A stretch of DNA of 64,000 bases from Weissella confusa (GTDB lineage Bacteria > Bacillota > Bacilli > Lactobacillales > Lactobacillaceae), in assembly GCA_014332815.1 (NCBI GenBank), contig JACSZT010000022.1, positions 1-64,000 on the forward strand, written 5' to 3'. Shown here in pieces: positions 1 through 64,000 of the stretch (positions are counted from its first letter, which is position 1; each line of letters starts with the position of its first letter). Both the position numbers and the translations under genes were made by a program. Under the pieces are notes generated by a model that worked only from the letters and a program-made list of their open reading frames with translations, was not told the DNA's origin and ran no database searches.

Positions 1-19
1 TTGTGATAATTGATGGCAC

Positions 20-46
20 AAAAAAACCACCAGGTAACTGGTGGTT
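20..46 (-). terminator. Terminator of the rRNA/tRNA operon
   Basis: Restored 152..178 +. AACCACCAG, loop GTTA, CTGGTGGTT, then a run of T: a classic intrinsic terminator right behind tRNA-Val. Confidence 0.85.
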
Positions 47-50
47 AGGA

Positions 51-123
51 TGGACGTTACAGGGATCGAACCTGTGACCCCCTGCTTGTAAGGCAGGTGC
101 TCTCCCAGCTGAGCTAAACGTCC
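51..123 (-). tRNA. tRNA-Val (anticodon UAC)
   Basis: Restored 75..147 +. Acceptor GGACGTT pairs with AACGTCC, D-arm GCTC..GAGC, anticodon stem CCTGC/GCAGG around loop CTTACAA (anticodon TAC), and T-arm CACAGGTTCGATCCCTGT. No encoded CCA end. It sits 4 nt after the 5S gene, the usual place for a tRNA trailing an rRNA operon. The gene fits within one inverted segment, so its fold is intact as supplied. Confidence 0.93.
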
Positions 124-127
124 ATGT

Positions 128-197
128 GCATCGCGACGTCCTATCCTCGCAGGAAGCGATCCTCCAACTACTTTCGGCGCTATTGAGCTTAACTTCT
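128..197 (-). rRNA. rrf: 5S rRNA, 3' part
   Basis: Restored 1..70 +. Contains the 5S core AGAAGTTAAGCTC followed by GCGCCG, TAGTTGG, GGATCGC and the closing GGACGTCGCGATGC. The 5' half lies before the window, so an rRNA operon runs into it from the left. It lies inside one segment and is readable intact on the minus strand as supplied. Confidence 0.85.
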
Positions 198-198
198 T

Positions 199-1980
<1,782 letters not shown>

Positions 1981-2970
1981 ATGCTTCGGCTGCACTCATC
2001 GCTGAATGCACGCCCAACTTTCGCGCAACATAGTTAGCTGTCGCCACCACACCACGGCCACCATTCTTACGCGGGTCATGCGCCAGAATTAATGGCACAT
2101 TTGCCAGCGCGGGATTATCACGGATTTCCACTTGGGCATAAAATGCATCCATATCCACGTGAATAATTTGTCGATCTTTTTGCTGTAATTCGTGAGCCAG
2201 TGCCACTGCATTGGTATGCCCCGTTTTATTCTCAGTAACATCAAGATAAGCCTCATCAAACGCAATTGGTTCAACCTTATCTGTGTAACGATGAAAAATA
2301 TCATGAACTTGCTGTGACACAGCACGGTACTTTTCAAAGTTAGGGTCTAAGAACGTTGCGTTCGGTGCTAATCGTCGTTCGTGCATCTTTATCGCCGTTT
2401 TCTGTCCCACACCACGCACATCTTCAATTGGTAGCGCATCTAAAAATGCACGAATATCCGCCTCTCGGACAATCGTGAGACCAACCGGCTTATTGTGTTC
2501 AGATGATAACTTCGCTAAGAATTTATTGAATGAAATACCAACTGAACTCGTCAACGACAATTCTGCAAAAATATCCTCAATCTGCTCCTCAGTGTCTAAG
2601 AATGGCCCGTACGTATGCTCTTTACCAATTGACTTACGCTCACGCTGCCATTCAACCGGGCGATCATCAACACCACGAATACGACGATAAAAATCGTAAC
2701 CCATTCGACCAAAATGCTGGGTCAATGTTGTCTGGTCCATCTCGTATAAGTCACGCCCCGTATCCACACCACACCCACCTAACTCTTCCCAAATGTCCTG
2801 CGCCAAGCGCACAAATTCCGTAGCGTCATTCGGTAAGAAATCCGTCTGAGTAAAGCGACGTGTCTCTGTATCAAAGTCTTCATCACGTACTTTCAAGACC
2901 AGTGTTTTACCGTGCATACCACGGCGTTTAAGTGACTGTTCTAGTCGCTCGGCCAATCGTTTAAACTCTA

Positions 2971-4158
2971 GCTAAAATTGCTGTTTGCGCTGTCATGTTG
3001 CTTTCTCTATTCTATCTAGTTTACTTACGTTGCTTTTATTAGTATAGCAGAAAATGGCCGTAAAAACGCGTTGTGGTTAGTTATCATACAGATTCAGCGG
3101 AATATTTTCAAAGGTCAGCGGCGCCAAGTTGGTCATCGTTAACCCAAGCAAGCGAATCGGCTTTTGAGTTATCATAAAGTGAATCTGGAATATCTTCCAT
3201 CTCACCCATCCAAGCTGAGCTAGGCACTTGCTTACCCACAACGTGGACATGCTTATTCGGGAATGATGTCTTAATCAATTCAGCAAGACCAAGTTGTGAA
3301 CCAAATGCGTCAGGGTCTGGACGTTGATGACGGTGAATAATAATCGTATCCGCCGCCTTAATTTGCTTCAATTCGTCTTCAAATTCCTTGTAGAAGGCGT
3401 AAATCAAAGCTGATGTTGATGACGCACCCTCTTCAACCCAATTAAAATCTGCATATGGGTCTTCATTAGGGTGGTGGTCAATCTTAACTAACGTCTTACC
3501 GTAATCAAAACGGCGGTCATCAATACGTGGTTCATTAGCCGTATCGGTAACAATAACTAAGGCGTTGCTATAAACGTAAGCTGATGCACGGGCAGCTTCA
3601 AGTGAAATCGTATCCATTCGTTGGTTAATCTCGAACCAATCAAAATCGTATTTCATCAAATCTGCCACAACCTGCATCGTTTCAGACTTCGTTGCATACA
3701 AAAAGCGGCCTGTATCGCCGACAATTCCAGCATACAAATATGACGCACCCGCATCAGACAATATCACCGTGTTACGTGAACGGAGTCGTACGCGGAAGTA
3801 CCCTTCATCTTGCTGCTCAAAAACAGCCCAGGCCTTCGCCGTGTTAATCTTTCCTAGCAATGGCACGATAAATGCGGTACCAAATTCGCCAAGATCGAAA
3901 CTCTCTACGACTTCATTCGTCAAAATAATATAGTTAAAGCCACTTTCAGTCATGACCATTGAAACGAATTTCTTCCAACGCTGTGTAAATTTCTGATCGT
4001 AGGTTGTAGTCAGTAAACTTCGCCATTATGCTTCTGTTTGCTCCTTCAATGTTTGATCGGCTTCACGAATGATATCGTTAATTTCATCCATATCCTTTGC
4101 TAAGGCACCTGAGGCAAACTTGTGTCCACCACCGCCGTGACGCTTAGCAATTTCGTTA
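2971..4158 (-). CDS. nrnA: DHH-family bifunctional oligoribonuclease / pAp phosphatase
   Basis: Restored 3142..4092 +, 316 aa. Degrades nanoRNA and dephosphorylates pAp or linear dinucleotides (family knowledge). Motifs: [14 protein letters not shown] (motif I), [18 protein letters not shown] (the DHH), GDTGRF, and in the DHHA1 domain [12 protein letters not shown]. Start ATG in frame with AQIKAADTI; the upstream region has TATACT preceded by TGC, an extended -10. Its TAA shares one base with the ATG of cshB, so the two genes are translationally coupled. Confidence 0.92.
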
Positions 4159-5544
4159 TGCATAGATTTGTTGTGCCAATTCACGTGAAGGCGTTGTAAT
4201 AACGGCTTGCACCTTTTGAACTGATGGGTCGTACTTTTGGAAAATAGGAATCAAAAATGTGTGTGTCTTACCAGATCCCGTTTGTGATTGTCCGACGACT
4301 GAACGTCCTTGCATGACAACTGGAATCAAGCGCTCTTGCACCTTAGTAGGCGTTGGAACCAATGTGTCAGCCGTGTGGATATCCAATGCACCAGCCGTGT
4401 ACAAGTCCTTGATACGACCAGGTGTTCCGATAACGATTTGTGGTTGTGAGCTTTCCAATTGGTGCAATTGACGCGCCTTGTCAGTACCACCAACGTACAA
4501 ACCAATGCGTGGTTGTTGATCAACTGGGAAACCAGTTCCCAATTGCTTAGCCGGGATAGTTGGGGCGATAACCGTTTCCGTTGGGATTTCTTCGATAACT
4601 GGGTTCGTTAGGTACTTCTTCAAGAATGGTTGCAACTTTTGTGGAATCGTTGCTGAGAAGACCAACATTTGCAAGTCTTCTGGCATCGCACCAGCAATCG
4701 CGTCAACTTCAGGCAAGAATCCCAAGTCCATCGTCATATCCGCTTCGTCGAAACGCTTACGCTCACGTGGTTGGATACCACCGTGAATTTCAGCAACCTT
4801 CAAACCACGGTTACGCAAAGCCTTCGTCAACTCACGGGCACGTTCCTTCGTGTTTGTGAAGACCAAAGCCATGTATGGGTTACCCATCGTCAACAACTCG
4901 TATACCAAGTCGTCCTTCTTCATTCCCTTCGTACCAACCAACAAGTTCGAATCAGGGTTGTAAATCGTAATCGCAGTTCCTTCCATACCGTTACGGCCAG
5001 TACGACCAACACGGTGCACGAAGAACTCCAATTCAGTTGGAATACCATCGTTGATGATCAATGAGACACCTGGGATATCGATACCACGGGCAGCCAAGTC
5101 AGTAGCAACCACGTATTGGTAATCCAAGTGTTGGATTTGTTGCATAGGTTGACGCTTGTAATCAGGCTTCACGTTCTTCTTCTTCTTCTTGACCATTCCG
5201 ATCATCGTTGGGTCAAGCTTAACCGTTGACTTTGAACGTTGCTTACGACGGCGACGGTCGTAACCAGGCTTCAACTCACCGTGTGAGTAGGTCATTGGCT
5301 CGAATTCAACACCCATGGCTTCAACCGCTTGCACGCGATCTTCCTAACCAGTACCAGTAGAAATCATCTAGCAAACACAAAAAGGGCCTCGTAATCCGCA
5401 TTTGATTACGAGGCCCTTTAACTTATTCAGAAAGAAAACTTACTTCTCGTTCGCCTTCTTCTTCGCCTTCTTAGCGGCGCGGAGTGATTGACGCTCTTCG
5501 ACACGCTTCTTGTACTTTGCGTCGCGGGCAATCGCTGCCTTAAA
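3961..5544 (-). CDS. cshB: DEAD-box RNA helicase
   Basis: Restored 4092..5450 +, 452 aa. Cold-shock/RNA remodelling helicase. Visible: Q-motif region [11 protein letters not shown], Walker [60 protein letters not shown], then a Lys/Arg-rich C-terminal tail ([10 protein letters not shown]). The joint at 5148/5345 reads GAT-GAG-GAA (Asp-Glu-Glu) only if base 5148 is left uninverted; otherwise a false TAG appears. The 1-bp overlap with nrnA makes a two-gene unit closed by a terminator. Confidence 0.92.
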
Positions 5545-6732: not shown

Positions 6733-8118
6733 CCATAACTGATTGCGTTCCGGTAATCACCAATGATGTTGTTTGCACAAAATTAGCGCCACCAATCAAC
6801 GCACCGACAACCGCACCAATAAACAGTGCGTATACCGGATTCAACTTCTTCAAAATCAAAATAATCGCTAGTGCTAGCCCAAGTAAGGCGCCCCACCACG
6901 TTACAATTGCTGTAGCCATTTTTAATCTCGCAATCGGTGCAACAATCAAAATTGCAACTGGGATAAAGACACCCACCGCCGTGATAATCATAACCGCCAA
7001 AGTGATGGCAAAAATGGCCAAGTGCTCACCCAGCTTATTCACAACTGTGCGAGCCAATGTCTCAGCTGCACCAGACTCCATCATAACACCAGCCAGGAGA
7101 CCAGCCGCAATAACACGTACCACTGTTCTGAACGTGGCGGCAAACAAACCAAACAACGCTGGGATAAAATCAGCAATCATCAAGTGGCTCATATCCAATC
7201 CAAATCCCTTTGCAGCAGCAATCGTATTTGGATTAGGTGAAATCAAGTTTCCAGCCTTTCCACCACCAGAAAGCGCCACAAGCAATGCCAACTTTGAAAT
7301 CCCCATACGGTGACCAATTTCCAATTTCGCATCTAGTTGGATGTTAGCTAACAACTTAATGTGCAAGATTTGTCCAATTGGGTTGATCAACAACAAGACA
7401 ACTGCCAAAATTGGCGTTACCAATGATGACTTCAATGAAGGCAGGTGACTTGTGTCAGTCTCACTGTCGTCAATGATATCGGCATCCAAAACCTTGTCAC
7501 CCTTATTCTTTAGCATCATTGCATCGCCAGATGTCTTAATCAAATCTACCATCACAGCTGGCAAGTTTGAGGCGGTGATTAAGCCTGAAATAAATCCAGC
7601 ACCAATCAAAATCAAAACGACATCTGTCATACGACTCATACCAGCTTGGGCGAAGTGCTTCAATTCCTTAGCCTTACCCATTGCAATCGCACCGACAGCG
7701 GCAGCGATTGGCAACACAAACTGGAAGTAGTTTCCGTGTGGCAAGTGGTCAATCAACATGGCACCAATGTGGACCAAAACGGCAGCAGTTAATGGATTAA
7801 CACCCATGCTCAAAATTGCCTTAGAGAATGATCCCGTTGCCAAAATAACACCTGTTGATGTAGAAGCAGACGCAGCTCCCATCGCAATACCGGCAATCGG
7901 TGCCAAGAATGTTCCTGAAACAGTGGCCTCTTTTGCTGTCATACTTTCTTTAAATGAATCTGGCGCAATTACAAATTTCATTTTAAACCTCTATCTTATT
8001 TAGAAAACGACGTACATGACGTAAGCAACAACCATCATCACCGTTACGACCAATGTCTCGTATCCAACTGACTTCATACGTTGTCCAATTGTCATGTGCA
8101 TGGCATTGGCAGTCACGT
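6733..8118 (-). CDS. GntP-family gluconate/glycerate permease
   Basis: Restored 6743..8038 +, 431 aa. Polytopic inner-membrane proton symporter family for gluconate and related acids. Restored order gives many transmembrane helices with family motifs: NPVYALFIGAVVGALIGGANF, AAGLLAGVMMESGAAE, GVFIPVAILIVAPIA, ALSGGGKAGNLISPNPNT, and GVILATGSFSKAILS. Start ATG after GAGATTAAAA. glxK follows after 18 bp, so transport and phosphorylation of glycerate are probably one operon under CdaR. Confidence 0.86.
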
Positions 8119-9306: not shown

Positions 9307-9503
9307 AATCCTCACTTAAATAAATATCTAAATAAAAACAGACCGCCATTGCATAACAGAGACGCTAACACGCGGTACCACTCTGCTTGCAATGATGGTC
9401 TGCATCATTACCTCTTAGGATGCCGTTAACGCGGGCGCACGGCTTGTTTTCACAAGCAGCTAGAAGGTAGCACCAGAAAAGGTTGAGCGTTGTTTGCATC
9501 ATC
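9307..9503 (-). promoter_or_regulatory. T-box riboswitch leader of alaS
   Basis: Restored about 9235..9504 +. The conserved T-box sequence CAGAGTGGTACCGCG (supplied 9371..9385 on the minus strand) is followed by an intrinsic terminator whose stem pairs AGACCATCATTGC with GCAATGGCGGTCT before TTTTT. A -10 TACAAT lies upstream around restored 9250. Uncharged tRNA-Ala should favour the antiterminator and switch on alaS. By chance almost the whole leader fits in one inverted segment, so it is intact on the minus strand. The specifier codon could not be fixed by eye. Confidence 0.88.
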
Positions 9504-9504
9504 G

Positions 9505-12474
<2,970 letters not shown>

Positions 12475-19602: not shown

Positions 19603-20196
19603 AAGTTTTCAGATTGCGTCGGTGGTGTTGACGGTTCCAAAAAATTCCCGGAGCTTTCGAGTGCTAGCTTTAGTGGCATATAAAGTACGTCAATGGTAAT
19701 TATCACTGAAAATATCATTGTTATAACGATACCTAAGGCAAATTTGAATTTCATTTCCTGATCCCCTTATAGGTGATTCAGTTTAGCATTCAGTTTTTGC
19801 TGCAATATTTCCGACACCTTTCGCCCTAGAATCACAATCAAAATCGGCGTCGCCCAGAAAGCAACAAAACTGCTAATCACAAACCTAGTTTGCATTTCGA
19901 TACTCTCTTTGCCGATTGATTTTGTGATGATGATATTGATCACCGTCAGTATGATTGGTGGCACAATCTCAATTAACAATAGTTTCGCGAAAAAATTGAT
20001 GTCTTCACCGACGGTAACTGCGTACATGTTCTTTCCATTTTCACGTACACCACCGAACGGCATAATACTTAATGTCGTAGCCATAATGTTCCTATTCTCG
20101 TTATATTTCACGGGTCAGCACAACCCAAACGTTTGTATGATTTACTAACAGTTTACCACACAATGCGTACCCTACCAACAACGAGAAAATTATATT
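19603..20196 (-). CDS. Small polytopic membrane protein, unknown
   Basis: Restored 19648..20004 +, 118 aa. Three predicted transmembrane segments: FALGIVITMIFSVIITIDV near the N-terminus, LLLIEIVPPIILTVINIII, and FVISSFVAFWATPILIVIL; a short Ser/Pro/Thr loop (LEPSTPPTQSENF) lies between the first two. Start ATG with GGATCAGG upstream. Not recognised. Lies between the PD-(D/E)XK-like gene and rnj, separated from both. Confidence 0.65.
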
Positions 20197-22176
20197 AGTT
20201 CTGATCCGAAGACCGGCACCTTAACCTCACTCAACAAGTAAGGCAATGCCCCAATTGCATCCGCGTGTCCGTGTGTCAAAAAGACACCGGCAATCTTATC
20301 TGCGTTCTCTACCAAGTAGGCAAAGTCAGGAATGACAACGTCAACTCCTAGCAAATCGCTTTCTGGGTACTTCAACCCTGCATCCAAAATAAAATCACCA
20401 GTGTAGACAACTTGTCCTTCTGGCGTTTCAATTACAATTCCAAGAGATTCTGGAATCGTGTGTGTCGTCTCAAAGAATGAAACGGTCACATCCCCAAAAG
20501 ATACTTCTGAGTTACCACGAACCACGTGGTAATCATCAAACCCCTTTGCTTCAGGCTCTGCTTCCACAGCCAACTTAGCCAATTCAATCGTTACGATAAT
20601 ACGACCCTCAGTGTGACCGCGGAACGTATCCAAAACGTAGCTACCCAATTCAGATTCATGGGCTGCCAAACCATAGCTAGCTGTACCTGCTGCATCAGCA
20701 AGCAAAGCGATTACCCCCTTGGCACCAATTTGTGCCAAACGTGCCAAATCAGTACGGTAGTATGGCAATGCCGTTGTATCAATCTTAAATTTTGGCTCCA
20801 ACTTGCTCAAGTTCTTCAAAGAAACAAATAGTTCGTTTTCAGGCATTGGCAAGTGCAACTTCTTCAAACGCAAAGCAGTACGTACAACCTTTTCCAAGTC
20901 GTTTCCAGAAATCACAATCTTACGACCAACCTTGAAGGCTGCGTCGATAACTTGTTGGATACGTTGGATGTTTGAAGCGACTGCAGCCTGCTTAACCGTT
21001 GCACCGGCATGGAACAACATGTCACGCGTACGTGCCACGTAACCTTCCATGGCCGTTGAAGGCGTCGTCGTAATGAATACCAAGTCACCTTCTTGAATTT
21101 GGATGTTGCGATCATCACCTTGCGCCATGCGTTGCAAGTGACGAATCGGTTCACCCATCTTACCCGTTTCAAGGATAACCGTCTCACAGCGAAGGTTGTC
21201 ACCCTTAGCAAGCAAGAAGACGTGGTTATCATCGTAACCAACTTGTTCAGCAGCCTTGTAAGCTGCGTTCAAGACACGGTACTCACCTTGCACAGGGATA
21301 ACATTCTTAGGCTTCAACAAGTTCAACAAAAGTTGGAAATCTTCCTTAGATGCGTGACCTGAAGACTTCTTATCCGTTGAAATGCCACGTGAATCAATCT
21401 TTGGCTTTGAGATAATCTTCTTTTTCTTACGATCAATCGTCACAACGGCGATGAAGACACCGTCTTCTGACAAGATGCGACGGTCGTTCAAAACGATAGA
21501 ACCGATATCACCGACACCAGATCCATCAATCATTGTTGAGCCAACCTGGATTGAGCCACCCAAGTACATTTCTTCGCCATCAGCTTCCATGATAACTGGC
21601 AAAATCACTGGCTTACGACGCGTTTGCTCGTACAAGAACTTACCCAATGCATCGCGAACAGAGTTCTTAAGGTTACCCCAGTCGAATTCCTTAGCGTTCT
21701 TGATACCTTCAGCGACGGTCGTTTCAACCAGGTCACCAGCCTCGCGAATCAAATCACGTGACGTCTTCACATAAACGAATGCGACCTCCGCTCCATTTTC
21801 AGCTGGCTTAGCAGGTTGATTATTATTATTCTTAGCAGGCGCTGGCTTGTTAGCGTTTGCGTTCTGCTTCTTCTTTGGCTTGTTGTTTTGCTTTTGTGAC
21901 TTGTTTGCTTCAGGAGCTTCAGCCTTCTTAGCGTTCGTCTTGCTTGCTGAGCGCTTGCGACGACGACCATTTTGGTTTTGATTCTCATAGGCTTCTTTTC
22001 CCTTTGCTAATAGTAGCTCATAGCGCTGTGTTTGTTCTTCGTTCATGATGCATCCTTCCTAACAAACAAGCGTCGACCCGTTAGAATCGACGCTTGTGTT
22101 TTATTCAGCTGATGGTGCTGATTCACCTTGCGTTGCCATTGGCTTACGACGGCGTGGACGGCGCTTCTTTTTCTTT
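19999..22176 (-). CDS. rnj: Ribonuclease J
   Basis: Restored 20110..22053 +, 647 aa. Endo/5'-exoribonuclease of mRNA decay and rRNA maturation. Visible: MPFGGVRENGKNMYAVTVGE, FILDAGLKYPE, the metallo-beta-lactamase motif THGHADAIGALPYL, YTGDFILDAGL-like beta-CASP region, RKIVISGNDLEK and VIPVQGEYRVL. The core is followed by an unusual about 90-residue tail rich in Lys, Arg, Asn, Gln and Ala. Start ATG of MATTLSIMPFGG. Terminator follows. Confidence 0.92.
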
Positions 22177-25740: not shown

Positions 25741-27324
25741 GGCGTCGATACCCTTTTCGTATACGTCAACAGGAACTTCGAACTTGATCGTTCCCTTGTT
25801 GCCTTCACCCTTAGTGAAAACTGCGTTTGCCATGTTTATTCCTCCAATAGTCACCGGTTAAAGACCGACGACATATATTATCTTTACATACTTTATAAGT
25901 TTACCGGAAAAACCGTTATTTGGCAATAAATGTAGGCGCTCTGCGTCGATCTTTGGTTGACCAACAGTCGTAACACCTGCTTCAGCAACTGCATCAGCAA
26001 ATACATCTGGCAATACAACGTTCAAAGCGTCTTGGTACAATGACTCTTCACCGTACATTTGGAAAAAGACTTGCTTAGGCATCTTACCCTTACGGAAACC
26101 AGGAACCGTAATTTGCTTCTTAACGTCGTTAAATGTACCGTTCTTTGCAGGAGCGTCAACCAAAACCAATTCTGCTTGACCTTCTTGCAAACGAGTGATT
26201 TCAGCGTCCAATTCTTCATCAGAAACAGTAACGTCTGATGCAGGAACCTTAACACCCTTGTACTCGCCCAATTCGATTTCTGGTGCCAATTCAACTTCAG
26301 CAGTCAAAACCCAAGCTTCACCCTTGTTCATTGGTGCCAAGTCAGCAGCTTGGTATTCTTCTGGGAACGTTACGTTAACGTTAACAACGTCTTCGGCCTT
26401 GGCACCAACCAATTGGTCTTCGAAGCCAGGGATGAATGAGCCTGAACCCAATTCAAGTGAGTAGTTCTCACCCTTTCCACCGTCGAACTCAACACCGTCA
26501 ACTGAACCAACGAAGTCGATAACAACCGTGTGAGCTGCGATAGCTGCGTCTTCCTTGGCATCCTTAGCTGCGTCTTCCTTAGAAGTCGTCAAGCGAGCCT
26601 TAACCTTGTCCTTCAATTCTGCCAAAGTTTCAACTTCTTCGTCGATGTCCTTTGCGAACTCGTCGTCCAAAGCTGGAACTTCCTTAGCCTTAACTTCGTG
26701 CACAGTAACAACGAACAAAGCGTCCTTACGCTTTACACGACGCTCAGCACCTTCTTCGTATTGCTTGTGCAAATCATCTTCTGATGAACCAGTGATTTGG
26801 TAGTACAACTCTGGTGAGATACCTTGTTGTTGCATTGAAGCAAAGAATTGGTTCATTTGACGGTGAACGTCTTCGTGAATCATTGAGTCAGGAATTTGAC
26901 CACCTTCAACAGATGCGTTGTCAACAAAAACAGCGTTATCAACAATCATGTCAACAACTTGCTTGATAGCAATGTCGTGTGACAACATGTCGTCTGACAA
27001 AGCACCGCGAACAGCAGCTTCGTCCATACCGTATTGGTCAGCCAATGACTTTACTTCAGCAGCAATGTCGTCAGCTGATGGCTTGATGTTTTCTGCCTTA
27101 ACAATAGCTTCCAATACCAAGTTCGGTCGGTTGTATTAAACACTGTTCAACCTCCTGTAAGTTTTTAAACGTTAGACTAAACGTAAGTTACCTACTATTG
27201 TACCAGAGATTTTGTGTTTTTTTATACGATATTCTTAGGACTTATATAGTGTAACACTGCAAAAAGAGGTTAGACTCGAAAAAGTCTAACCTCTTTTGTT
27301 TAACGTTTAATTGAATTAAGCTTT
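25741..27324 (-). CDS. tig: Trigger factor
   Basis: Restored 25845..27134 +, 429 aa. Ribosome-bound chaperone and prolyl isomerase. N-terminal ribosome-binding part shows [19 protein letters not shown] (signature G-F-R-x-G-K-x-P), the FKBP domain shows [17 protein letters not shown] and [15 protein letters not shown], and the helical C-terminus shows [15 protein letters not shown]. Ends ..NAVEA. Start ATG behind GGAGGA. Terminator, then clpX, as usual. Confidence 0.94.
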
Positions 27325-31680: not shown

Positions 31681-32274
31681 CTAAAAATTCATTGGCTTTG
31701 TCAGAAACAAATTCCGGTACCCCATTGGCCGCCCAACGTGCTTGTACCGTCATCAAAAACGTTTCGTGAATCCAGCTTCCCAAGCGGTGTGACATCAAGA
31801 CAGCCACTGCGTAAACCACAAAACGACCACCCAATGACAATAAACTGCGGACGAAACCTAAGTATCGGCCACGTAGTCAAGGGATTTCCCATGTCTGTGT
31901 TAATTGTAAAACAAAGAAGATTTCAACGTAGACTAAAAGGCCGTAAACTAGCATTCCGGCTAGACGATTCACCGTGCCGAGCAAAGGCACATGGTTAATG
32001 AAACGCAAACTACGCTCGATTGAACGCACAATGAACGTGCCAATAATCATGATTAATCCAAATGCTAAACCGGATGAGGTATGGTCGCAATTGGGCCTTT
32101 ACCGCTTCATACTCAAGGGTTGCTAAGACTTTCTTATTCATGTGTCTTAACCTCTAATATCTCTTATTAATCCCTACTGGAGAATCCACCATTGATAGAT
32201 GGCATCTGAGAAGTAAGGTGTCTGATTCAAAATCCATTGGGCGATGGGTGACTGAATCATCGCATCGTGGTACC
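31483..32274 (-). CDS. cvpA: CvpA family membrane protein
   Basis: Restored 31634..32176 +, 180 aa. Four transmembrane helices: [14 protein letters not shown], a second around [33 protein letters not shown], and [28 protein letters not shown] after the first helix and [13 protein letters not shown] near the C-terminus fit the colicin V production family. Translationally coupled to zapA, 32 bp before mutS2. Confidence 0.85.
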
Positions 32275-34650
32275 TCGGTCCCACTCAATGACGCATCAAT
32301 CTTCAAACGTTGCATGTGAGGCTTAACATCCGCCAACTTTGGAATGTTAATACCACCTTGCCAGCGTAGCACCTTAGCTGCGTCTGACGTTTCTGCCAAC
32401 CACGTTTGCATTTCGTTGGCATCTGCAGTTGGCAACAAGTTGCGCAACTCATTTTCACCAGCAGCCGTTGAATCTGGTGAGGCTTCATCGGTCACACGAC
32501 CATCCCCATCAATCGCCGTGTTCACACGACGCGTCAAATCTTGCATGACAACCAAACGCGTGTAGTAAGGACGCAAGGCAGCCAATGGCTCACCACGGTC
32601 TTCCACCAAGTTTTCGAAGAACAAACGCATTTGTCCCGTCGTAAACAACACGCGTCCGACTTGCGCCAAACCAGTTTGTGATTGGTCGTGCACAACACCA
32701 CCGAAGTGACTACGGTATTCCGTCTTAACTGGGATAACATAACGGTCATTACGGATTGTCACGATTGGGTCAGACAAATATTGTGCTGACTTACCACGTG
32801 TGTAATCTTGCATCTTTTGACGGATGGCGTTTTCCGTTGACGTGATGGCTTGGCGCACACGGTGCAATGCATAACGGGCCTTGGCGTTCACAAAGTCCAA
32901 GTGACCCAAAACTTCAGCATTCTTTTGAATGTTATCAGCTTCAGGACGCAACATAGCTGACAATTCAGCCAAAACACGCTCTTCTTCGTGACGCTCCTTG
33001 ATGTAGTGCTCACGCAAACGGTTGTTCATATCAACCACATCACCGGGCTCGATGTACAACGTTTGTTGCAACAAGCCCAACGTCTTCAAGGTAATTGTCT
33101 TACCACCGGTGTTAGGACCCGTGACGATGATGGCCTTGTAATCTTCACCAATGATAATATCGTTGGCCACAGCCTTTTGTGGGTCCAACAATGGGTGACG
33201 CGCTTGCAACAAACGCACGTGGTTTTCTGGGCTGTACTCAGGCTCTTGTGCCTTTGTTGCCGCACCCAATTCATCGAATAGGACCAATGAATCAGCGTCA
33301 ATTTGCTTCAAGATTTCAACGATGTTGACCATGTGTGATGAGAACGTTGACAATGATTGCTCGATTGATTGCTCATCACCGATATCAGCAAAGACTTCCT
33401 TGAACAACCCAACTGTTGAGTACTCAGCAACTGGAATGAACAAACCTGATTGCGCCATCAATCCCAACAAGAACTTGTACGTTGGACGCAACGTTTCAAC
33501 ATCAAATTCCATTGAGGCATTGATGGTATCAACGCGGTTGTAGCCGTAAACTTTCAACTCAGGATAGTGAGTTGTGGCAACAGTGTATGAACCCTTGGCA
33601 CCAACGGCATCCAAAATTGACATGGCCAAAGCTGCTCCTTCTTGTGGATCAGTTCCGGCTATTTGACGATTTTCGATGACTTGTTGGGCCAATTGCACTT
33701 GTTGGGCCAAAACGGCGTTACGACGTTCAACCAAATCGGCAATCATGTCGTTCAATTCTTGTGAATCTTCTGTCGTCAATGAGGCAGCGGCATCAATAAT
33801 GCTTTGATCCAAGCCCAAACGCTTTGAAATCTCCAAGGCGTTTGAACGACCAGGAATGAAAGCACCCTTGGCATCCATCAACTTATTTTCCTTAACGGCC
33901 ACCCCATCAAGTTGCATCTTACGCAAATCAGCGATAATCTTATCAGCCTTCTTACGTGAATCAGCAACGATGTGGTTGGCTTCCTTCTTGGCTTCTTCAA
34001 GCGTACGGGCCTTCTCAGTTTCCATCTTTTCAAGCTTTTGCTCGTAATCGTTCTTGTCTTCAGCAAGCACCATCTTCAAGATACCCATCTGGACTTCAAA
34101 CTTGCCGTCCTTGAGCTTACGCTTAACCGTACCTTGTTGACCGTACTCACGCACCAAAACCGTATCGCCGGCTTCAATGTTTTGGCTCTTCGCCTTCTTA
34201 GCCTTGCGCAAAACGCGGTTGTTTTCAGCTGATGGTTCTTGACGCATGGCGTTCACGGAAGGCAAGTTGTTTAGCAATGCACGGTCAATAAATTGATCCA
34301 ACTCACTCATCGCAGCTTCATAGCGTTGTCCACGCAAATCAAGCGTTGCAGACGCGTTCGCACGGTTAACTGCCTTGCTAGTGTTAACGCGTGGCTTTGG
34401 CGCAGCCTTTTGCTCTGACTTCACTTCGGCAACGTTTTGCTTCTCGATTTCTCATCATTAAATTGATTATAGCAAAAAGGCTAGTAACAAGTCGTTACTA
34501 GCCTTCGGCATTATTTATTAACCTAGTTCAGCATACGTGGCACCTTGATCAGGACCCGTGAAGTTGAAGTTCTTCACGGCACGGTGTGAACGCAAGTATT
34601 CTTGCACACCTTGGCGGATTGCACCAGTTCCCTTACCGTGAATAATTTCT
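32077..34650 (-). CDS. mutS2: Endonuclease MutS2
   Basis: Restored 32209..34584 +, 791 aa. MutS-like ATPase with C-terminal Smr nuclease domain; acts on recombination intermediates or stalled ribosomes. Visible: [38 protein letters not shown], Walker [45 protein letters not shown], a long charged coiled coil, [20 protein letters not shown] and [15 protein letters not shown] of the Smr domain. Start ATG after GAGGTTA. Terminator follows. Confidence 0.94.
34473..34505 (-). terminator. Terminator after mutS2
   Basis: Restored + strand: AAGGCTAGTAACGACTTGTTACTAGCCTTTTTG. Confidence 0.85.
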
Positions 34651-36234
34651 TGGCCCGTTAATCGGGCAATGTCTTCATTCAATTGATCAACTACCGAAAT
34701 CACCATATAACGTGAAAATTTAAATTCTGCCATCAGGTCAGACAATCGTGTCACTTTATTTCTAACCATATAACGGAACACAGAAAGTCGATGCTGTTCC
34801 TGCGTTGTCCATATCCATTCCATACAAATGCCCTCAATACCACGCCTATAGATAGTGGGCGTTGAAATTCCTAAATCAAATGCCAAGTCTTCCCACGACT
34901 CAAAATCTTCGGCAATTAAGTGTTCAATAATCTGTGCTCTGGTTGAGTTTGACAAATAATATTGTTTCAACTCATCTATCGGTAGCAGATTTAACGGCGC
35001 ATCAAATACAATTACATTCCCCTTTTCGATGACCAACACACCTGTTGCTATGACATGACTAATATAGTAATTAGCGGCATTTTTAATCTCATCGGCAACA
35101 TCGGCCGTACGTTGGCCATTATAGACCGTTAATAAGGCAAAGGTTAGGAATCGAATATTTTCCTCCTGCCCTACTAATCGATAATCTTTGGTTATTTCGA
35201 TACCCTGAACTGCAAGATTGTCTTGCACAATTGTTCTTTCTTTGTGGCCATTCCGAGCCATCAAGACTTTCAAGTGTTTTAGAAGTCGTTGCGCCTGTTC
35301 AGACATTTCAATCGTACCGTTTAGATACTGGTTGGTAAAACCGCTAGAAACGAAGTGCCGTTGTGAAAAACGATTTGTCCAAATCGCGGCCATATGCCAA
35401 ATAATACTAATCTGGGAGTCTTTTAATTCACCAAATATTGGTTTTCTGGAGTCAACAGGTGTCATCGACAACCGGAACAGACATTTATAGCTCGTTTGAA
35501 TGCTCTCATCAAACCGCTGCCAACATTGCTTTACAGTAGGTGTGACATCGCGCGCGGTTTGAATGGTCGAAAATAGTCCTAAACTATGCAAGATTAAGAT
35601 AATAAAACGCGCCTCATTATCTAATTCCCCATCAGACATAAAGAGTGCCGTTTTCAGTTTACTAGAATCGAGTTCTTGTTTTTGCGCAAAATCATTCAAT
35701 ATTTCAGTGCCCAGCTGAAACGCCAGTGGGTATCGTTCTGAAAATTCTTCAAAATGTTGTAAATCATAAATCCCTGAACTAATCCCAAATGGATAGATTA
35801 AAAATTGAAATAGTGTATGCCCGACACTATACGTTAAAGGGACATCTGTTAACAGTATATCTGTTTGATTGTCCAACCTATGTGACGTCGCAATCTTCGC
35901 TTTGGTTACCGGTCCGAACTGGTCCAGTAGTAAATTTTCGATATTCACATGATTACCAAAGTCCAACACAATATTGACCTTTGGAATGCTTTGGTAAATA
36001 TAATCGCCTGTTGCCAAAGCTGAGACAAGGTCGGTTTTTTAATAATGAAAAAAGCTTCATATCAAACGATTAACGTCCAATAATGAAGCTTGTTCTCATA
36101 TTTAATTTTGTCGTCGCCAGGCATTAAATTTTTTGGAACTAATCCGATTAATATCTGCAATCAGCTGATTAAGATAACGATCAGATTCAATTCCTTGCCA
36201 AACGTACACTAGTTCATTAGTCACCGGTTTCCGG
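34651..36234 (-). CDS. Mga-like transcriptional regulator
   Basis: Restored 34675..36168 +, 497 aa. N-terminal helix-turn-helix (VFRYMVRNKVTRLSDLMAEF, KFSRYMVISVVDQLNEDI), a second (FESWEDLAFDLGISTPTIYR) and YRLVGQEENIRFLTFALLTV, the layout of Mga/PRD-containing activators; the remaining about 350 residues have no clear motif. Start ATG behind GAGGGC. Directly upstream of the exopolysaccharide operon on the same strand, separated by a terminator, so it is a candidate regulator of that operon (inference). Confidence 0.78.
36046..36092 (-). terminator. Terminator after the Mga-like gene
   Basis: Restored + strand: AAGCTTCAT ... ATGAAGCTTTTTT with a 27-base loop; T-run present. Confidence 0.65.
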
Positions 36235-50688: not shown

Positions 50689-53460
50689 TGGAAAGTTTCG
50701 TAAAAATGCTCATTTTCCGCTGTCATGTTAACTCTCCTCTAACGACTAGTCAGTTGTTATTATTAATAAGTAATATTAGAACTTTTCTCATAAAAGTCAA
50801 TGCCATGTTTTATGGTACTACCTTCCTTAAGATGTGACGTGAATTTTGTCCTATTTCAGTTATACAAATGAAAATGCTACGCAATAGTAACACGAATCGC
50901 CTCGTGTTCGTTATCAACCGTGTAAGCCAGGTCTTGGCCGGCTTCATCGGTCACTGACGTAATCGTCAAATACTTTTGGTGAACTGAAATTTCGGTTGCT
51001 TTTGCTTCACCAGAAATCGTCGTACGTCCACTAATTACTTTAGTACCGCGGTTCACATCAATGTACAAATCATAATGTGAAGGGAAATCAAACGTTGCCT
51101 TGGCTTCAGGTTCATCAATTGATGGGAAGGCTTGGCGCGCAAAAGTCGTTTCAAATTGCGTGCCGATAATCTGCTTCTTCTCACCGGCCACCTCATAGTA
51201 TGACGGATAAATCCCCATCATCGTATCAGTCAACGGTGCCGTGTACGCAATCGTCAAAGCAGTTGGCCCAACTTCGCGTAAGGCCTTCGTGGCAAAGACA
51301 CCAACTTCAACGCCACTCTTCGTACGGGTTGTCTTGCTTTGCAAATCACCGAATGCAAAGGCTACCAAGTATGTTGACATGCGGACAGTCGTCGCAAAGT
51401 AGTGCACACCATCTTCTTCACGTAGTTCCGGCATATTTGCCAACACGGTTTCACCCGGTTGCTCATCAAACTTGAGCGCCGTATTATCTGGATCAAGCGT
51501 TAAATAAGCTTCACGATACGTAACCAAGCCCCAGTTTTCCATGGCACCAGCTGAAAAATCAGGCAACGCCAATTGCCATGAGTGTGGCAACGGATATGGT
51601 GTTTGGTAGAAATCTTCATAGAATTCGATCGAACGCTTAGCAATATCAAGCGCAAAGTCCAATTCATTTGCCTTGTGGACATCATCAGTCTGGAACAATT
51701 CCCAAATGTGCCAATCTGGCTCAATCGCATCGATGGCGACATACTCCATCATGTTGGCAAAACTTTCGTTAAGCCACAAGTCGTCCCACCACTTCATCGT
51801 GACCAAATCACCGAACCATTGGTGGGCCAATTCGTGCGCAATAACAGTCGCCACCACTTGCTTCTGACGCAATGGGTGGTGCGCATCAAAGTATGCCTTC
51901 AAGCCCTTACGCAAGGCATCATCTCCAAGCAACGCACGGACCATGACCAACATACGCGCACCCTTCGCATAGACAATCGCACCATCAAAGAGAGCATCAA
52001 TTTCTGCTGGATCTTCCACTTGCACGTGAACGGATTGGACACCGTCAGTCGCATCACGATTCAATGCTGCCGAGTGCCACTGACGCCCCTTTTCTTCGCC
52101 TTCACCAATGAAGAATTGTTGTTGTGACAAGGTCAATTGACCATCCACAACCGCTGCTGTGACCACTGGATAACCCGGTTGCTCCAACCACGACGTCATG
52201 ATAGCACCGACATCCAAGCCAGAGGCATCACCCAATGCTTGCCATAAGTCAGCACCAGTTGCATTGCCATAAGCAGACAATTTCGTCGCATCTTGTGCCA
52301 AATCAGCCAACAACGTCTCATCATATTTCACAATGAAGTGCGAATTATTACCAACGTTCAATTGGAATGGTTGACCATTTGCCTCACGCAATTGTTGATA
52401 ATCACCAACTACGATTTCATGTTCAGTCAGCAATTCTGGCACGGCTTCATAGTTACTGTTCAATGGAATCATTTGTAGTTGATGCTCTTCTTCAGAATCA
52501 GGCATCACAAACTTCTTCAAGTTATTCGCAACATCATAAAGTGTTGTCGTAACAACTACATGTTTACTATTCGCAAACGTTTGTAGCAATGGCACAACGG
52601 TGGCGTATGATGTCAAACGACCTTCAGCCAACAAACGTTGATCTTGCAACAATTGTAACTGTGAAATGACTTCAGCAGGCAACGCCGCCAAATCTGCTTG
52701 GTCGGCCACAAACAAGTCGTGGGCAGCCGCAATAGCTTCTGCATTTTGGGCATACAACGCGGCACGCAAGACCAACGGACGCGTAATCGCATCGTCACTA
52801 CTCTCACCGGCTTGGGCGTGCCAACCTAAACGTGCAACTTGTTGACGACTCAAGCTATCAAAGAAATGTGGCTTGATGGTGTTAGCATCCTCAAACTTGC
52901 TAATCAACGTTGCAATCAAATCTGAATCTGGTGTTTGGGTAAGTGCGCCTTGAATATCACGCTTGAACGTCGCATCTGATGACGCAACGTAAGCTTGGAG
53001 CAGTTGATCAAACAAAGCCTCGCTACCATAGTTTTCGACCTCATTACGCAAAACCAAGCCACGAGGTTCAAAGAAGGCCTTGAACTCTGCCAAGCGCTCG
53101 GCCGTTTGGAAAATACCAGCCGTCACCGTGATGTACGTCGTGAACTCCATGTCGCCACCAACCGTATCTTCCAACCATTGCCAGTCTGCACGAACCCAAT
53201 CCCAAGCTGCTTGTTGCCCATGCTTATTTGTCAAAACGCCACGATACCAAGCACGTAAATCAGAGAACATTTTGATGTAAACAAAAAGAGGTAGAAAATC
53301 CACGGATTTTCTACCTCTTTATTTTGTCTATTAATTGTTATTTGCTGCGCGAACCGCTGCATTAACTGCTTCTTGTTCCGCTTCAACCAGCGCAACGCGG
53401 GTTTCTACAACCTTGATATCCATCGTGATTTCACGTGTCAATCCAGGCGTTGGCAACTTA
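50689..53460 (-). CDS. pepN: Aminopeptidase N
   Basis: Restored 50848..53391 +, 847 aa, normal for lactic acid bacteria. Zinc M1 peptidase of peptide utilisation. Visible: HYDLYIDVNRGTKVISGRTT, FPSIDEPEAKATFDF, GAMENWGLVTYRE, zinc motif VIAHELAHQWFGDLVTMKWW followed by NESFANMMEY, ALLGDDALRKGL and a helical C-terminal domain. Start ATG with AGAGGAGAG upstream. Followed by a strong bidirectional terminator. Confidence 0.95.
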
Positions 53461-54648
53461 GAAGAAAACACGTACCCAATGCCACAATTGATGGCTGGTG
53501 AAGACTTCTCAGCCTACACGGAAATTAAGCCTGGCGCTTACTTCGGTTTGGGCTCTGGGTTGGCTGAAGATGGTTACGAATTCGTCAACCACCACCCTAA
53601 GTTCATCGTCGACGAAGACTGCATGCCAGTTGGATCTGCGATGTTCGTTAAGATCGTACACATCAAGGCGTCAGTTCGTTCACGTAACCCACAAGTGCGT
53701 GCCGACATGGAACGTATGATTCGCGACATTATCGAGCACGTGACGGCAATGTACGGCGCTGAATACGATTTGGACTTCCAAAAGGGCTACGGCTCAGTGA
53801 TGAATGCTAAGGAAGAAATGGATTTGGTGTTGGACACGGCCAAGGAGTTACTTGGCTTCGACCTAACGATTAAGGGCCGTGGTGCCCACGCCATGGCACC
53901 TGAACAATCAATTGATCCAATTACGATTGGGACAGAGATTATTCAATCAATCAACAACATGATTGCACGACGTGTTGCTCCTACTGAAGCTGCTTTGGTT
54001 TCATGGGGACAATTCACGGCCGGCACTGTCAACAACATCATTCCACACACGGCCATGCGTGACAACATTCACGGTGATGTGAAGTTTATCTTCCAAGCCG
54101 CTGAAGAAATGCCACCTGGTGGCGCAATCGCCTTGGTTGAAGCTGGTGTATTGGATGACGTTGACCAAATCTTTGGTTTGCACGTTTTCCCAATGACCAA
54201 GACCGGTACTGTTGGCTTTTCTTACGGCGCCATGACAGCTTCATCTGATTTCGCCCCAACTGGTTTGGTTGCGACGTTGCACGGTGCCCACCCTGGCAAG
54301 ACAATTGCCTTGCGTGCCGATATCGATGCTTTGCCAATGGATGAGTTGGCTGATGTACCTTATAAGTCAATTAACCCTGGTGTGATGCACTCTTGTGGTC
54401 ACGATGTACACGCTGCCATTTTGCTTGGTGCGGTCTTCGCGTTGGCCGATGTCACGCTTTATTCCAAAACAATCTAAGGAGAACGCCTAATTATGGAAGC
54501 ATTGCTTGAAAAGATTCGGGTTGCTGATCAAGTAACCTGGCGCCGTTGGTTACACCAACACGCCGAATTGTCATTCGAAGAATTTGAAACAACGGCTTAC
54601 ATCGAGAACTTGTTGCGTGATGTGCCGAACCTAACGATTGAACGTCCC
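53263..54648 (+). CDS. M20-family amidohydrolase / aminoacylase
   Basis: Restored 53442..54605 - (minus after restoration), 387 aa. Shows RWLHQHAELSFEEFETTAYI, RADIDALPMDELADVPYKS, MHSCGHDVHAAILLGA, FIFQAAEEMPPGGAIALVEA, GLHVFPMTKTGTVGF, IKGRGAHAMAPEQSIDPI and MAGEDFSAYTEIKPGAYFGL, i.e. the metal-binding His/Asp/Glu set of N-acyl-amino-acid hydrolases. Encoded 2 bases after the MFS gene, so transporter and hydrolase likely handle one acylated substrate. Confidence 0.9.
53284..53320. terminator. Bidirectional terminator between pepN and the M20 gene
   Basis: Perfect stem AAAGAGGTAGAAAATCC / GGATTTTCTACCTCTTT with T-runs both ways; the genes converge here after restoration. Confidence 0.87.
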
Positions 54649-57024: not shown

Positions 57025-57420
57025 TGTTTTGTGGAGCACCGTCGCAAAATCTTCTTCTTCAGAAATTGCCACGCGCATTGTATCTTCCACTTCTAACGTT
57101 AGATGTGCAAATTTGTACTCTTTCATATCATTCTCCTTGCATGTGCTTCATTTACCGAGTTTTAGTATATCTAACCTCACCTTGAACACACCAAACAAAT
57201 ATTCAACCAGCCGTAAAATGGGTAACAAAAAGCCGACCATTTCTGGTCGACTCCTAATTATCGGTGGATACCGTTTGAAATTCTATAATTCAGATTTTGC
57301 CTTGATCACCATTCGATCACCAGCCATAAAGGAAATCGTAAAAAGGTAAAAAGCTGTGTCCCCTAATTTAACAGCGCCATCCTCCATGAACAATGATAAT
57401 GTCACCCCTTCATTATTCTT
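57025..57420 (-). CDS. Unknown small protein, 79 aa
   Basis: Restored 57120..57359 +, 79 aa. Starts MKEYKFAHLTLEVEDTMRVA, then ISEEEDFATVLHKTENNEGV and ends FMAGDRMVIKAKSEL; predicted beta-rich, acidic, soluble. Start ATG 7 bp behind AAGGAG. Unrecognised. Its terminator is a near copy of the one in front of it. Confidence 0.6.
57224..57254 (-). terminator. Terminator, GTCGACCA type, copy 2
   Basis: Restored + strand: GTCGACCA GAAA TGGTCGGC TTTTT. Confidence 0.8.
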
Positions 57421-59796: not shown

Positions 59797-61380
59797 TGCG
59801 TTCTCGATCAAAATGAGCCAACTTTTCAAGTAGTTGGTAGTCTTGAATCAACACTGGCCCACGTTGACCAGCCGTCAAACTGTGTTGGTTATTTGCCCAA
59901 GGTTGTCCCTCTTGCGTCGTTAACTTCTCTGCCATTGTATCGTTTCCCCCGTTACAATTCCGTGTGCAATTTCAGTAACCTATTCAATTTACTTTAACAG
60001 CAAAGCCACGAACGTCGCGGATGGTGTCAGGGTAACCCAGCTCACCAGCAACTTGTGAAATGCGGATTGCCAATGGCGTTTCCTTACCTTCACCGTTAAA
60101 CAAATCGGCCTTCGTGTATGCACTCATGTCATGTGTCACCTGGAAGACACCCTTCGCACCAGCGCCCTTGGCGTGAACAACACGCTCTGGAACCATGAGG
60201 TACGTGACTTGGTGAATTGACTCTGGTGAATGTGACCAAAAATCAAATTGCATATTCACATCACGTTTGTGACTACGTGGGTCACGCTTTTGTGAGTGGA
60301 TGAAGTCCGGGAACTTCAATGGATCGTTAATAAAGAAAATCGGTGTGTTGTTACCAACGATGTCGTAGTTACCTTGTTCCGTATAGAACGTGAACAATTC
60401 ATTTTGTAGATAATCCGTATCTTGGCCTGCCAACTTCTCAGCAACTTCATTGGTCATGTTTGACACACCTTGGTTGCTGATAAAGTGATACTTCACCCAG
60501 AATTGCTCACCGGCGGCATTCACCCACTTGTAGGTGTGACTACCATACCCGTTCATTGTGCGATAACTGGTTGGATTACCACGATCAGCAATTTCTTCAA
60601 CATCTTCAAAGTAGTTATCAGGGTTGGCATTCAACGTCATCACACCTACTTCTTGGAGTGGATAATCCTTGTGTGACACAACCTTCGTGACATCAAAAAT
60701 ATCGTACTTGTAGTCCAAACCTTCTTGATAAGGAATGATTTGGACATATAGCGTCCATGAAGGGTAATTACCATCTTCAATTGCGCCACTGCCATCTTGG
60801 TTTTGTGCCATGAAGCCATCACGGGCGTAATTGTGTACTTCATTACGTGGGCGGTTCGCCTTTAATTGCTCATAGTTGGCCCCCAAACGGTAACGCGCCG
60901 CATCCTTGTATGCAAACAAGCGTCCTTGCAACAACTTATCCAATGAAGGCTCGATACCTGGCACCAAATTTGCTGGTGAGAAGTTACCTAACGTTTGCTT
61001 GAACGTCTCAACCAAGCGTTGCTTCTCTTCTTCAGACATCAAGTTATACAAACGGCCAGCTGCTGAATAGTAGTCCGTGTCATATGGTTCGTACGCCCCG
61101 GTCATACCTTGGAACATGTCACCACTAATTGATGCATGTGGATCTTCAACCGGTCCACCCTGGCTATTTGGTTCATAGTTCCACTACCAATTTATCGGAT
61201 GTTTTTGCATCAAAAAAACGCAACGAACGTATTTCGTCCATTGCGTTTCATCATGATTCAGTTATAGTTCGATATCTGTCATATCAACGCCAATAGCATC
61301 AGCAACACGTTGACCGTAATCAGCATCAGCACGCGCCATTTGTTGTACCATCAAGCGCTTGTTTTCAAGGCTATCAATGG
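59797..61380 (-). CDS. katA: Haem catalase
   Basis: Restored 59855..61300 +, 481 aa, normal. Decomposes H2O2; needs external haem in lactic acid bacteria. Shows [40 protein letters not shown] followed by [20 protein letters not shown] (active-site His), [46 protein letters not shown], and the haem-ligand region [18 protein letters not shown]. Own promoter and start ATG behind GGGGGAA. Terminator follows. Confidence 0.95.
61211..61248 (-). terminator. Terminator after katA
   Basis: Restored + strand: AAACGCAATGGACGAAATACGTTCGTTGCGTTTTTTTG. Confidence 0.82.
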
Positions 61381-62370
61381 CAAAAATGTGTGTACTTTGA
61401 CTCACAATTTCGATCACCAAAAACAAGGTAATCAATCGCCATAATTTCGACTTCGTCATGATTCTCTCCTTACCATTAATCCCAATTTATCACGCCTTAA
61501 AACGAACTTCTTTTATGATATTTCAAGTTTCGTGAAATTCTTAACTAGTATCCCGATTATCCCAACATTCCTTCCGGGACGTTCCCAGTGTCATCATTAA
61601 GAATAAGAACCCTGGAAACAATAAATACGATGACTGCGGGACAGTCATATGCCGGTCAAACGGCACTTGTACCTGAGTTAAAAGCTTATTCAACAACAAC
61701 GTGAGTCCGGCTAGCGCTGCTTCTACTACAATAAATGCTAACATCGTGTATCGCGCGGCAAGATGAAAGTTCGTTTGCTGTGAAAAAGCATTTGTAATGT
61801 GCCACAATCCAAACAGTGCCCCCAGACCGACTACCAGTACTAGTTCACTCTTAACGTATTGCTTCACAACCGACAAAATAATCCCGCGCCATAAGTATTC
61901 CTCAAAAAATGCCACTAATAGCGTCAAAACAACCGCCATCACAAATCCTTTGAAGGTGTAGTCAGCGCTAACCCCATAACTAGCGAACACAATCGCAGCG
62001 ACGTAATAAGGAATACCATGCGGCTCCGCCATGTTTCGTAAAATGCCACTGAAGTCCAGTAACCCATGCATTATCATCGGGTATAGCAAGTTCTTAGTTC
62101 GCAACATCAGTGCTGTCTGCAGCATACCCAAACCAGCAATTTCAATCATTTGCACAACAGTCTCATGCCAACCGCTGCTACCATCGCAACAACACCCCAA
62201 GGATACCCTTGCCAAATATTATCGCCACGAATCACGTCTAAAATAATCGGCCACACACTCACTAGCACCAATATATACAACAGCTCTTTAAAACCCGTTA
62301 ATTGTTTATTCATCACTCGTTCTCTCATGTTTTCTTCTGCCCAAATAGACAAACAGTAGCGCCGGGGCGT
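61381..62370 (-). CDS. CPBP family intramembrane glutamic endopeptidase
   Basis: Restored 61499..62236 +, 245 aa. CAAX/bacteriocin-processing type membrane protease. Several helices, with the catalytic motifs LLVAFFEEYLWRGIILSVVK (EExxxR), GALFGLWHITNAF (FxxxH) and MIMHGLLDFSG (HxxxD). Ends RRKHERTSDE. Start ATG of MTKSKLWRL behind AAGGAGAG. Overlaps the next membrane gene by 8 bases; no bacteriocin precursor was seen beside it. Confidence 0.85.
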
Positions 62371-62568
62371 ACTACTTTCTTACCCATGAGTCTTAGCATA
62401 AATGCCAAGCATTGCCGAAAAACCTGTCATGAATCCTGCCAAGATGGCCTGAATAATAAATTTCGGAAAAATAAGATCATTTTTAAATACAATAATAGCA
62501 ACCAACCACGCAAGATAAATTAACAACGTCAGCAAGACCTCATTCAGCTTCGTTAAGTATAAGAAAGG
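62173..62568 (-). CDS. Membrane protein, 109 aa, unknown
   Basis: Restored 62229..62558 +, 109 aa. Four short hydrophobic segments: LLYILVLVSVWPIILDVI, WGVVAMVAAVPFLYL, LLTLLIYLAWLVAIIVF and AILAGFMTGFSAMLGIYA. Starts MNKQLTGFKE inside the end of the CPBP gene (8-base overlap), so co-translated with it. Unrecognised. Confidence 0.65.
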
Positions 62569-63360
62569 TACCATCACTATTTGATTGTTCTGCAGGTTTG
62601 GCTGCATGGAATCGCCTGAAATGGTCACCGGACTAGCTACAAAATTAACCCCGATAAGCCCAATCGTTAATCCTACAACAATCGGCCACAACCCACTTAA
62701 AAAATTCCGCATATCGTTTCCCCCTACAAAACAATTACGCCTTCTCTAATAAAAGAAACTTAAAGACTGTTCGTTTTCGCTAATGAAAGATTGATCAACA
62801 ACCTTACCATTCACTCGCAACACACCATTCACATCCGACACCGTATCACCAGGCACACCAATGACACGTTTAATATATTTTTCATCAGGCGTAGTTGCAT
62901 TGGGGTCGACACCATACGCATTAAATACAACGACTTCGCCCCGCTTTATCTCGCCTTGTTTATGCGGCGCCCATACTGTGCCAGAAATCTTGTTCTTAGG
63001 CACAAATCCCCAATACCTTGAATCGTTTGAAATACTACGATGGTCGCCCAGCACAAAATAGTATCCAGCTGGAACCTTACCACTAATTGGTCCTTGTCAG
63101 TTTTGTGATTGACCCAATTCTGCTAGTGATGTCCAATCACCAACACGATTATTCGTGGCGACAAGCTGCCACGCTAACAATTACGACAAGGACTAGGATA
63201 ATAATAATCAACACCATGTCAGGTCACCTCTCGCGTATTTTTGTTAATCGTAGCATAATCGGCGATAAAAAAAGCGCAACGAGTTTTCAGCTCATTGCGC
63301 ACCATCAAGTCTATATTAGAAAGATACCTTATTCACTTCTGTCGCGTCATTATCAAATGT
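62569..63360 (-). pseudogene. Signal peptidase I with an in-frame TGA
   Basis: Restored 62622..63206 +, 194 codons. Type I signal peptidase: N-terminal anchor LSGLWPIVVGLTIGLIGVNF, catalytic Ser in VTISGDSMQPNL, QGEIKRGEVVVFNAYG, catalytic Lys in KYIKRVIGVPGDTV, and box E YYFVLGDHRSISNDSRYWG. Codon 136 is TGA (CAA-AAC-TGA-CAA; supplied 63097..63099), between the Lys and box E, where Trp (TGG) would fit. The frame is otherwise whole, so a recent nonsense change, a sequence error or readthrough are all possible. Start ATG with GGGGGAAACG upstream. Confidence 0.85.
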
Positions 63361-63558
63361 ATCGTTACAACCAATCCACGTTGCCACATCTTCATGTCAC
63401 AATCCCCCAACAGTTTTAATATGTCATTATTATTACATTTTGTAACACAAATGACAAACTAAAAAGGAGTTAACGATTACGACGTTTGTGGTCACGTCGG
63501 TCTTGTTCCCAACGTTCGATATCTTCCCAGTCAATCGTCCGATCCGAGTCGTCAGAAG
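63163..63558 (-). CDS. Small membrane protein, 47 aa
   Basis: Restored 63305..63448 +, 47 aa. One transmembrane helix (VLIIIILVLVVIVSVAAF) and a strongly charged tail (WEDIERWEQDRRDHKRRNR). Start ATG 9 bp behind GAGAGGTGA, a good ribosome site. Unknown; typical of small bitopic stress or regulatory peptides. Confidence 0.55.
63267..63300 (-). terminator. Terminator after the signal peptidase gene
   Basis: Restored + strand: GCGCAATGAGC TGAAAAC TCGTTGCGC TTTTTTT. Confidence 0.8.
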
Positions 63559-64000
63559 TAGTAAATCTTCACCAACGTCGTGCCGGCAGCCATGGTCTTA
63601 CCAACCTTCAACTTCTGCACAGCGATAGCATCCCCAGCCAACGTCAAATCCGTATCCGCTTGAATTGGTGCAGCTGACGAACTTGTCGCTGACACTGCCT
63701 CATCCGCAAATACCACTGCACCTGGCATTACAACCCCACCAAGTCCAGCCAAAGCCAACTTTGGCTCGTCCTTTGACATCTTCGTCTCCGGATCCTTGTG
63801 GTTCAACGTCGTACCGTCTTGTGACAAGCCCTCATCGTTCACAACGTACACGTACTTGTCCGTGTTAATCTTAGGCAATTCATTTGACGTTACCGTGTAA
63901 CCACCAAAGTCCGTGTATGGACCTGATAGTTGCAACACAGTACCAGGCTTCATCACAGTAGTTGTCTTAGGATTCTTGAACTTCTTGAATGAAGAATCAA
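63361..64000 (-). CDS. Secreted surface protein, 3' end outside the window
   Basis: Restored from 63523 +, at least 144 aa, incomplete. Signal peptide MKMWQRGLVVTMALAGLGGV with cleavage near VVFADEA, then a Ser/Ala linker and repeats of a beta-rich type (LQLSGPYTDFGGYTVTSNEL, DKYVYVVNDEGLSQDGT, LNHKDPETKM). No anchor is seen because the end is missing. Start ATG behind GGGGGATTGTG. The last 46 bases belong to a segment that continues past the window. Confidence 0.7.

Follow-up and report, generated by a model that had tools for sequence, protein, structure and literature searches.

A 198-base grid of inverted blocks in a Weissella confusa-type assembly, almost certainly a data error

In the stretch of DNA analysed here, several enzymes can be read only as short pieces in reversed order, and the question raised by this locus is whether that order belongs to a bacterial chromosome or to a data file. 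The window is the whole stretch, 64,000 bases, and corresponds to bases 1-64000 of contig C15 (77,717 bp) of the Weissella confusa-type assembly G000, which has 24 contigs, 2,294,552 bases and a completeness given as 66.5%, against 95-100% in its relatives. The original prediction described 197-base inversions repeated every 198 bases and considered them a re-encoding or processing artefact that matches no known recombination process, and all tests run agree with it. The pattern is almost certainly not a real biological feature but a data error. Very probably it is a line-wise inversion of 197 bases produced by software that reverse-complemented contigs per text buffer and passed over the character at the end of each, taking it for a newline. 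C15 was compared by BLASTN with an intact relative, G005:C4 (78,911 bp), which is the main reference, and the assembly with a second relative, G006 (main contig of 2.30 Mb, 2.02 Mb covered). The grid in the window has the following elements:

1..64000, no strand: 198-base grid, 323 complete lines and the first 46 bases of another; bases 198k+1 to 198k+197 are turned to their reverse complement where they stand, and base 198(k+1) is left untouched.
1..197, no strand: first inverted block, the grid beginning at contig base 1; the HSP at 1-106 extends to the end of G005:C4.
48..124, minus strand as supplied: tRNA-Val (tac), which is whole because it lies entirely inside block 1.
198..198, no strand: first spared base, followed by each 198th base, as seen by comparison with the relative and by column composition.

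The grid is visible with and without a reference. In a reference-free Markov test of the window, period 198 is top-ranked among the periods 20-599, and the weakest log-probabilities fall on base 198k (z -6.4). C15 and G005:C4 share 313 HSPs, all on a single strand, with a median length of 197 and a maximum of 210; among those longer than 100 bases, 206 begin at position 1 and 211 finish at position 197, modulo 198. Both the HSP ends and the Markov weak point place the breaks at multiples of 198 from base 1, as had been predicted. Of the 393 blocks of C15, 318 map to G005:C4 (75 are unmapped), all 318 on the same strand, their order reversed, and the step between neighbouring mapped blocks is exactly 198 in 294/308 pairs and differs from 198 in 14/308. 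Identity is 97.6% over the 292 fullest blocks.

The fault belongs to the assembly and extends beyond the window. Samples of 2 to 2.4 kb were taken from the readable stretches of G000 and classified by HSP length against G006, and of 168 samples 79 are scrambled, 45 intact, 10 unclear and 34 without usable match, the single sample of C1, which spans scrambled and intact parts, being tallied as intact. C11, C14 and C18 are scrambled wherever they could be placed, as is C15 in 17/19 samples, and C13, C17, C21, C22 and C23 are intact wherever placed. Contigs C19, C20 and C24 are mixed, and so is C1, in which the first 997 bases are scrambled and are followed by 100 N and by an intact part. The first 4 kb of C12 are scrambled and its remainder is mostly unplaced; C16 is also barely placed. 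On C22 the rpoB gene is undamaged, and C21 carries a MutS-type gene whose frame stays open for 884 aa, in contrast to MutS2 on C15, which is cut into 11 pieces. A fault limited to the window was rejected, as the grid is present in the rest of C15 and in other contigs, and so was damage throughout the assembly, given the intact C13, C17, C21, C22 and C23 and the intact parts of C1, C19, C20 and C24.

In 12 tiles from nine other contigs, the step is reversed and exactly 198 in 776/880 pairs and is off in 104/880, and the spared base is on the old strand in 635/691 cases and fails in 56/691, its complement being found in 15 and the continuation of the block in 168. Over C15 and the other tiles together, 5-12% of the steps and 5-8% of the spared bases deviate, which could be explained by strain differences of 2-7%. 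The junction test, applied to tiles of contigs other than C15, is clear for C14 alone, and its values are meaningless for C2 to C7, which read as N; for this reason a plasmid search with C2 also came up empty. Two further features of the record ends were observed. In the 7,157-bp contig C8 (L108), bases 1-161 and 6997-7157 both hit one 161-base segment of G006, in opposite orientations, a pattern expected where a repeat element ends or where contigs were broken at a repeat. Scattered single Ns occur at 149-354 of L125 (C22), near the record start, and at 163276-163516 of L135 (C19), past a 100-N gap, and look as if they were the consensus of two merged overlapping ends.

Only some pieces of the assembly are hit, and the grid restarts where pieces join. 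C18 follows one grid up to 60,472 and a new one from 60,473, with no gap letters between them. Period and phase are fixed from the start of the record or piece in C15, in the other tiles and in C18, as expected from an artefact; the exceptions are C20, with 140 bases before the grid, and the C19 piece after the N gap, with 119, and these off-grid left ends need trimming or an extra small piece to be accounted for. At piece ends the last, short chunk is inverted whole in 8/8 cases, and the step of a spared last base is seen in 0/8, several of the eight ends sitting in repeats with multiple G006 matches. The order of the scaffolds follows the same division into pieces. On G006, C24 rises from 1.391 to 1.669 Mb in its scrambled piece and falls from 1.382 to 1.354 Mb in its intact one; the two scrambled pieces of C18 rise over 352-407 kb and 92-347 kb; and C19 rises over 569-613 and 494-544 kb, falls over 459-441 kb, where it is intact, and rises again over 432-441 kb. 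When each scrambled piece is flipped as a single unit, C18, C19 and C24 each run downward on G006 unbroken. C20 is partly collinear and also jumps between two regions; all four of these mixed or multi-piece scaffolds follow the chromosome of the relative far better after the scrambled pieces are reverse-complemented as units. Judged against G006, the affected pieces are those that needed a whole reverse complement, in C18, C19 and C24 and in part in C20, and since the scaffolds are collinear only with the scrambled pieces turned as units, the software evidently aimed at reverse-complementing whole pieces. Taken with the last chunk inverted whole, the scaffold order points to a whole-piece reverse complement made buffer by buffer.

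These joins also bear on who introduced the grid. It might have entered during a later preparation of the genome copy or of the window, and not by the hand of the depositors, which is improbable: the grid tracks the pieces of which scaffolds are built and begins anew where they join, to which any processing of a finished record would be blind. The completeness of 66.5%, if this value comes from public metadata, likewise fits a scramble that was already present when the value was calculated.

What happened to each line is revealed by its 198th base. On C15 the spared base is the complement of the base that the relative has between the blocks in 269/282 cases, so that the single untouched bases of the original prediction lie on the old strand; it is that base itself in 4, and the rule is broken in 13/282. 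The column composition, which needs no reference, agrees: the spared column deviates by 0.0465 bits, against a maximum of 0.0196 among 178 in-block columns, and complementing it lowers the deviation from 0.0465 to 0.0079 bits, as expected if the other strand was kept there alone. One letter per full buffer is left on the old strand, as a buffer artefact would leave it, in C15, in the other tiles and by composition.

Lines of 198 letters that were merely put in backward order, with no reverse complement at all, would also give blocks on the strand of the relative in reversed order. The 198th base should then continue its own block, and on C15 it does so in only 64/282 cases, about chance, against the 269/282 that match the complement. 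Undoing the pattern on C15 gives the same answer. None of the 391 24-mers that cross the supplied breaks is found in G005:C4, against 192/390 mid-block 24-mers; an undo with period 198 and one spared base recovers 186/391 of the join 24-mers, which equals the mid-block rate, and an undo without a spared base recovers 44/391. Eight undo settings were tried, and the seven others recover 0 to 44 of the 391 joins, by which the periods 196, 197, 199 and 200 and other numbers of spared bases were ruled out. In each line only the 198th base stayed as it was, on the old strand and in its old order, and the reverse complement in place was applied to the preceding 197 bases; this excludes a mere reversal of line order, and we give this alternative very little credence.

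The reverse complement in place, with one base spared, also restores the genes. Six proteins of the relative align end to end and without gaps to the undone stretches, with identities of 95.5-99.9%, and in the supplied sequence each of the six is broken into 5-11 HSPs (>80% identity), none longer than 88 aa, with the blocks in reversed order:

195..1583, minus strand: Tgt, 7 HSPs with blocks in reversed order; 389/389 aa aligned after undoing.
9502..12276, minus strand: AlaRS, 9 HSPs of >80% identity and 12 profile pieces, with an 818-aa ORF open through the permuted blocks; 882/882 after undoing.
19998..22037, minus strand: a 647-aa protein that we take to be RNase J-like, 9 HSPs; 647/647 after undoing.
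25741..27129, minus strand: trigger factor, 5 HSPs; 429/429 after undoing.
32262..34661, minus strand: MutS2, 8 HSPs of >80% identity and 11 profile pieces; 791/791 after undoing.
50883..53468, minus strand: aminopeptidase N-like PepN, 11 HSPs, with an 808-aa ORF open through the permuted blocks; 847/847 after undoing.

The original prediction held that the blocks of Tgt, AlaRS, MutS2 and PepN are individually right and in reversed order, and that restoring them would give AlaRS, PepN and others end to end; both hold for these proteins. For alaS, mutS2 and pepN its co-linear lengths agree with the ORFs of the relative, and only its 381 aa for tgt departs from the 389 counted in the relative from the first ATG. 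The frame is kept in each turned block and long ORFs survive because 198 is a multiple of 3. The Tgt profile matches G000 in five pieces on the minus strand in block-reversed order, and elsewhere in the genus it gives one near-full-length match in 26/27 other genomes and none in the 27th. NCBIfam models name Tgt, DNA polymerase IV, AlaRS, EF-Tu, trigger factor, ClpX and MutS2 on the relative, EF-Tu and ClpX from internal starts, and the models for aminopeptidase N and catalase HPII match genes of the relative below their curated cut-offs. The catalase-like gene, of 481 aa, lies at L121:114-1559 (G005:C4:20114-21559) of a W. confusa-type genome and scores 490 bits with the HPII model against a cut-off of 1102. 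In a passage of PMC3569357 the genus is called catalase-negative.

Inversions do occur in bacterial DNA, and site-specific invertible DNA, such as phase-variation switches and shufflons, shares with G000 the adjoining inverted segments. The blocks of G000 differ from such systems by their one fixed length, by their phase counted from the record start and by their ends, which lack terminal inverted repeats (3.06 of 12 matches, where random 197-mers have 3.01). The ends share no motif either: a candidate break motif on C15, with a 0.0465-bit excess above all 100 controls, was due to the spared column alone and was gone once that column was complemented, so that column composition shows only the strand effect of the spared base and no further motif. 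A genuine biological inversion, by an invertase, a shufflon or other recombination, with a single length of 197, a phase tied to record and piece starts and all tested enzymes cut to pieces, has practically no chance of being the explanation.

The line-wise fault in software can be followed through its probable steps. An assembly or scaffolding program would have set out to reverse-complement whole contig pieces, and its code may have worked through each one-line sequence in portions of fixed size, with 198 characters to a buffer. Every full buffer would have kept its final character unchanged, taken for the newline that line-based code looks for there; in the last, short buffer a true newline would fill that slot, and all bases would be inverted. 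Only the pieces placed in reverse orientation would be hit, and the fault would have arisen before deposition. This resembles the mis-oriented or wrongly reverse-complemented contigs known from draft genomes, which share with it a strand-handling error at scaffolding that hits whole pieces and spares others, but in G000 the strand change is made separately in each line and leaves out a single letter of it. A literature search, which was not a thorough one, found no paper on such a buffer-wise fault.

Other genomes were screened for similar damage. In 151 genomes of the family rpoB is never split into more than three profile pieces, a weak screen, as the copy of G000 itself is intact. Among nine genomes that include G000 and eight others of 65-91% completeness, G000 alone has block-permuted AlaRS or MutS2. 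In one of the genomes, AlaRS (G034:C11:23972-26562) is in normal order and split over frames with stops, which is a different fault, and in another, G089, MutS2 is partial. It is possible, though in our view rather unlikely, that the scaffolding program silently corrupted further public genomes in the same way, unnoticed thanks to the divisibility of 198 by 3, with permuted enzymes entering databases as real.

The undamaged content of the blocks also places the assembly. Of the first 56 blocks of the window, 44 map to W. confusa DSM 20196 (L020) with a mean identity of 98.5%, and against two other W. confusa-type genomes the identities of these window blocks are 95.8% and 95.7%. In 9,375 aligned bases, DSM 20196 and VTT E-062653 share 95.8% identity; over 8-9 kb, DSM 20196 is about 4% from both VTT E-062653 and G006, which are 98.2% alike (L021 and the G006 tile L137). 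On these sequence comparisons W. confusa seems to hold two lineages, and G000, judged by contig C15, would belong to W. confusa as defined by its type strain.

The G000 assembly nevertheless serves as the representative of one species despite the 98.5% block identity to DSM 20196, and its separate species entry presumably results from the scramble. The scrambled genes have long open frames, and gene callers are likely to report them as proteins. Values of completeness and identity, gene content and protein families derived from G000 are likely to be wrong until the assembly is redone from reads. The grid matters as a database error, and its signature, weak joins at a fixed period from the record start, offers a cheap screen.
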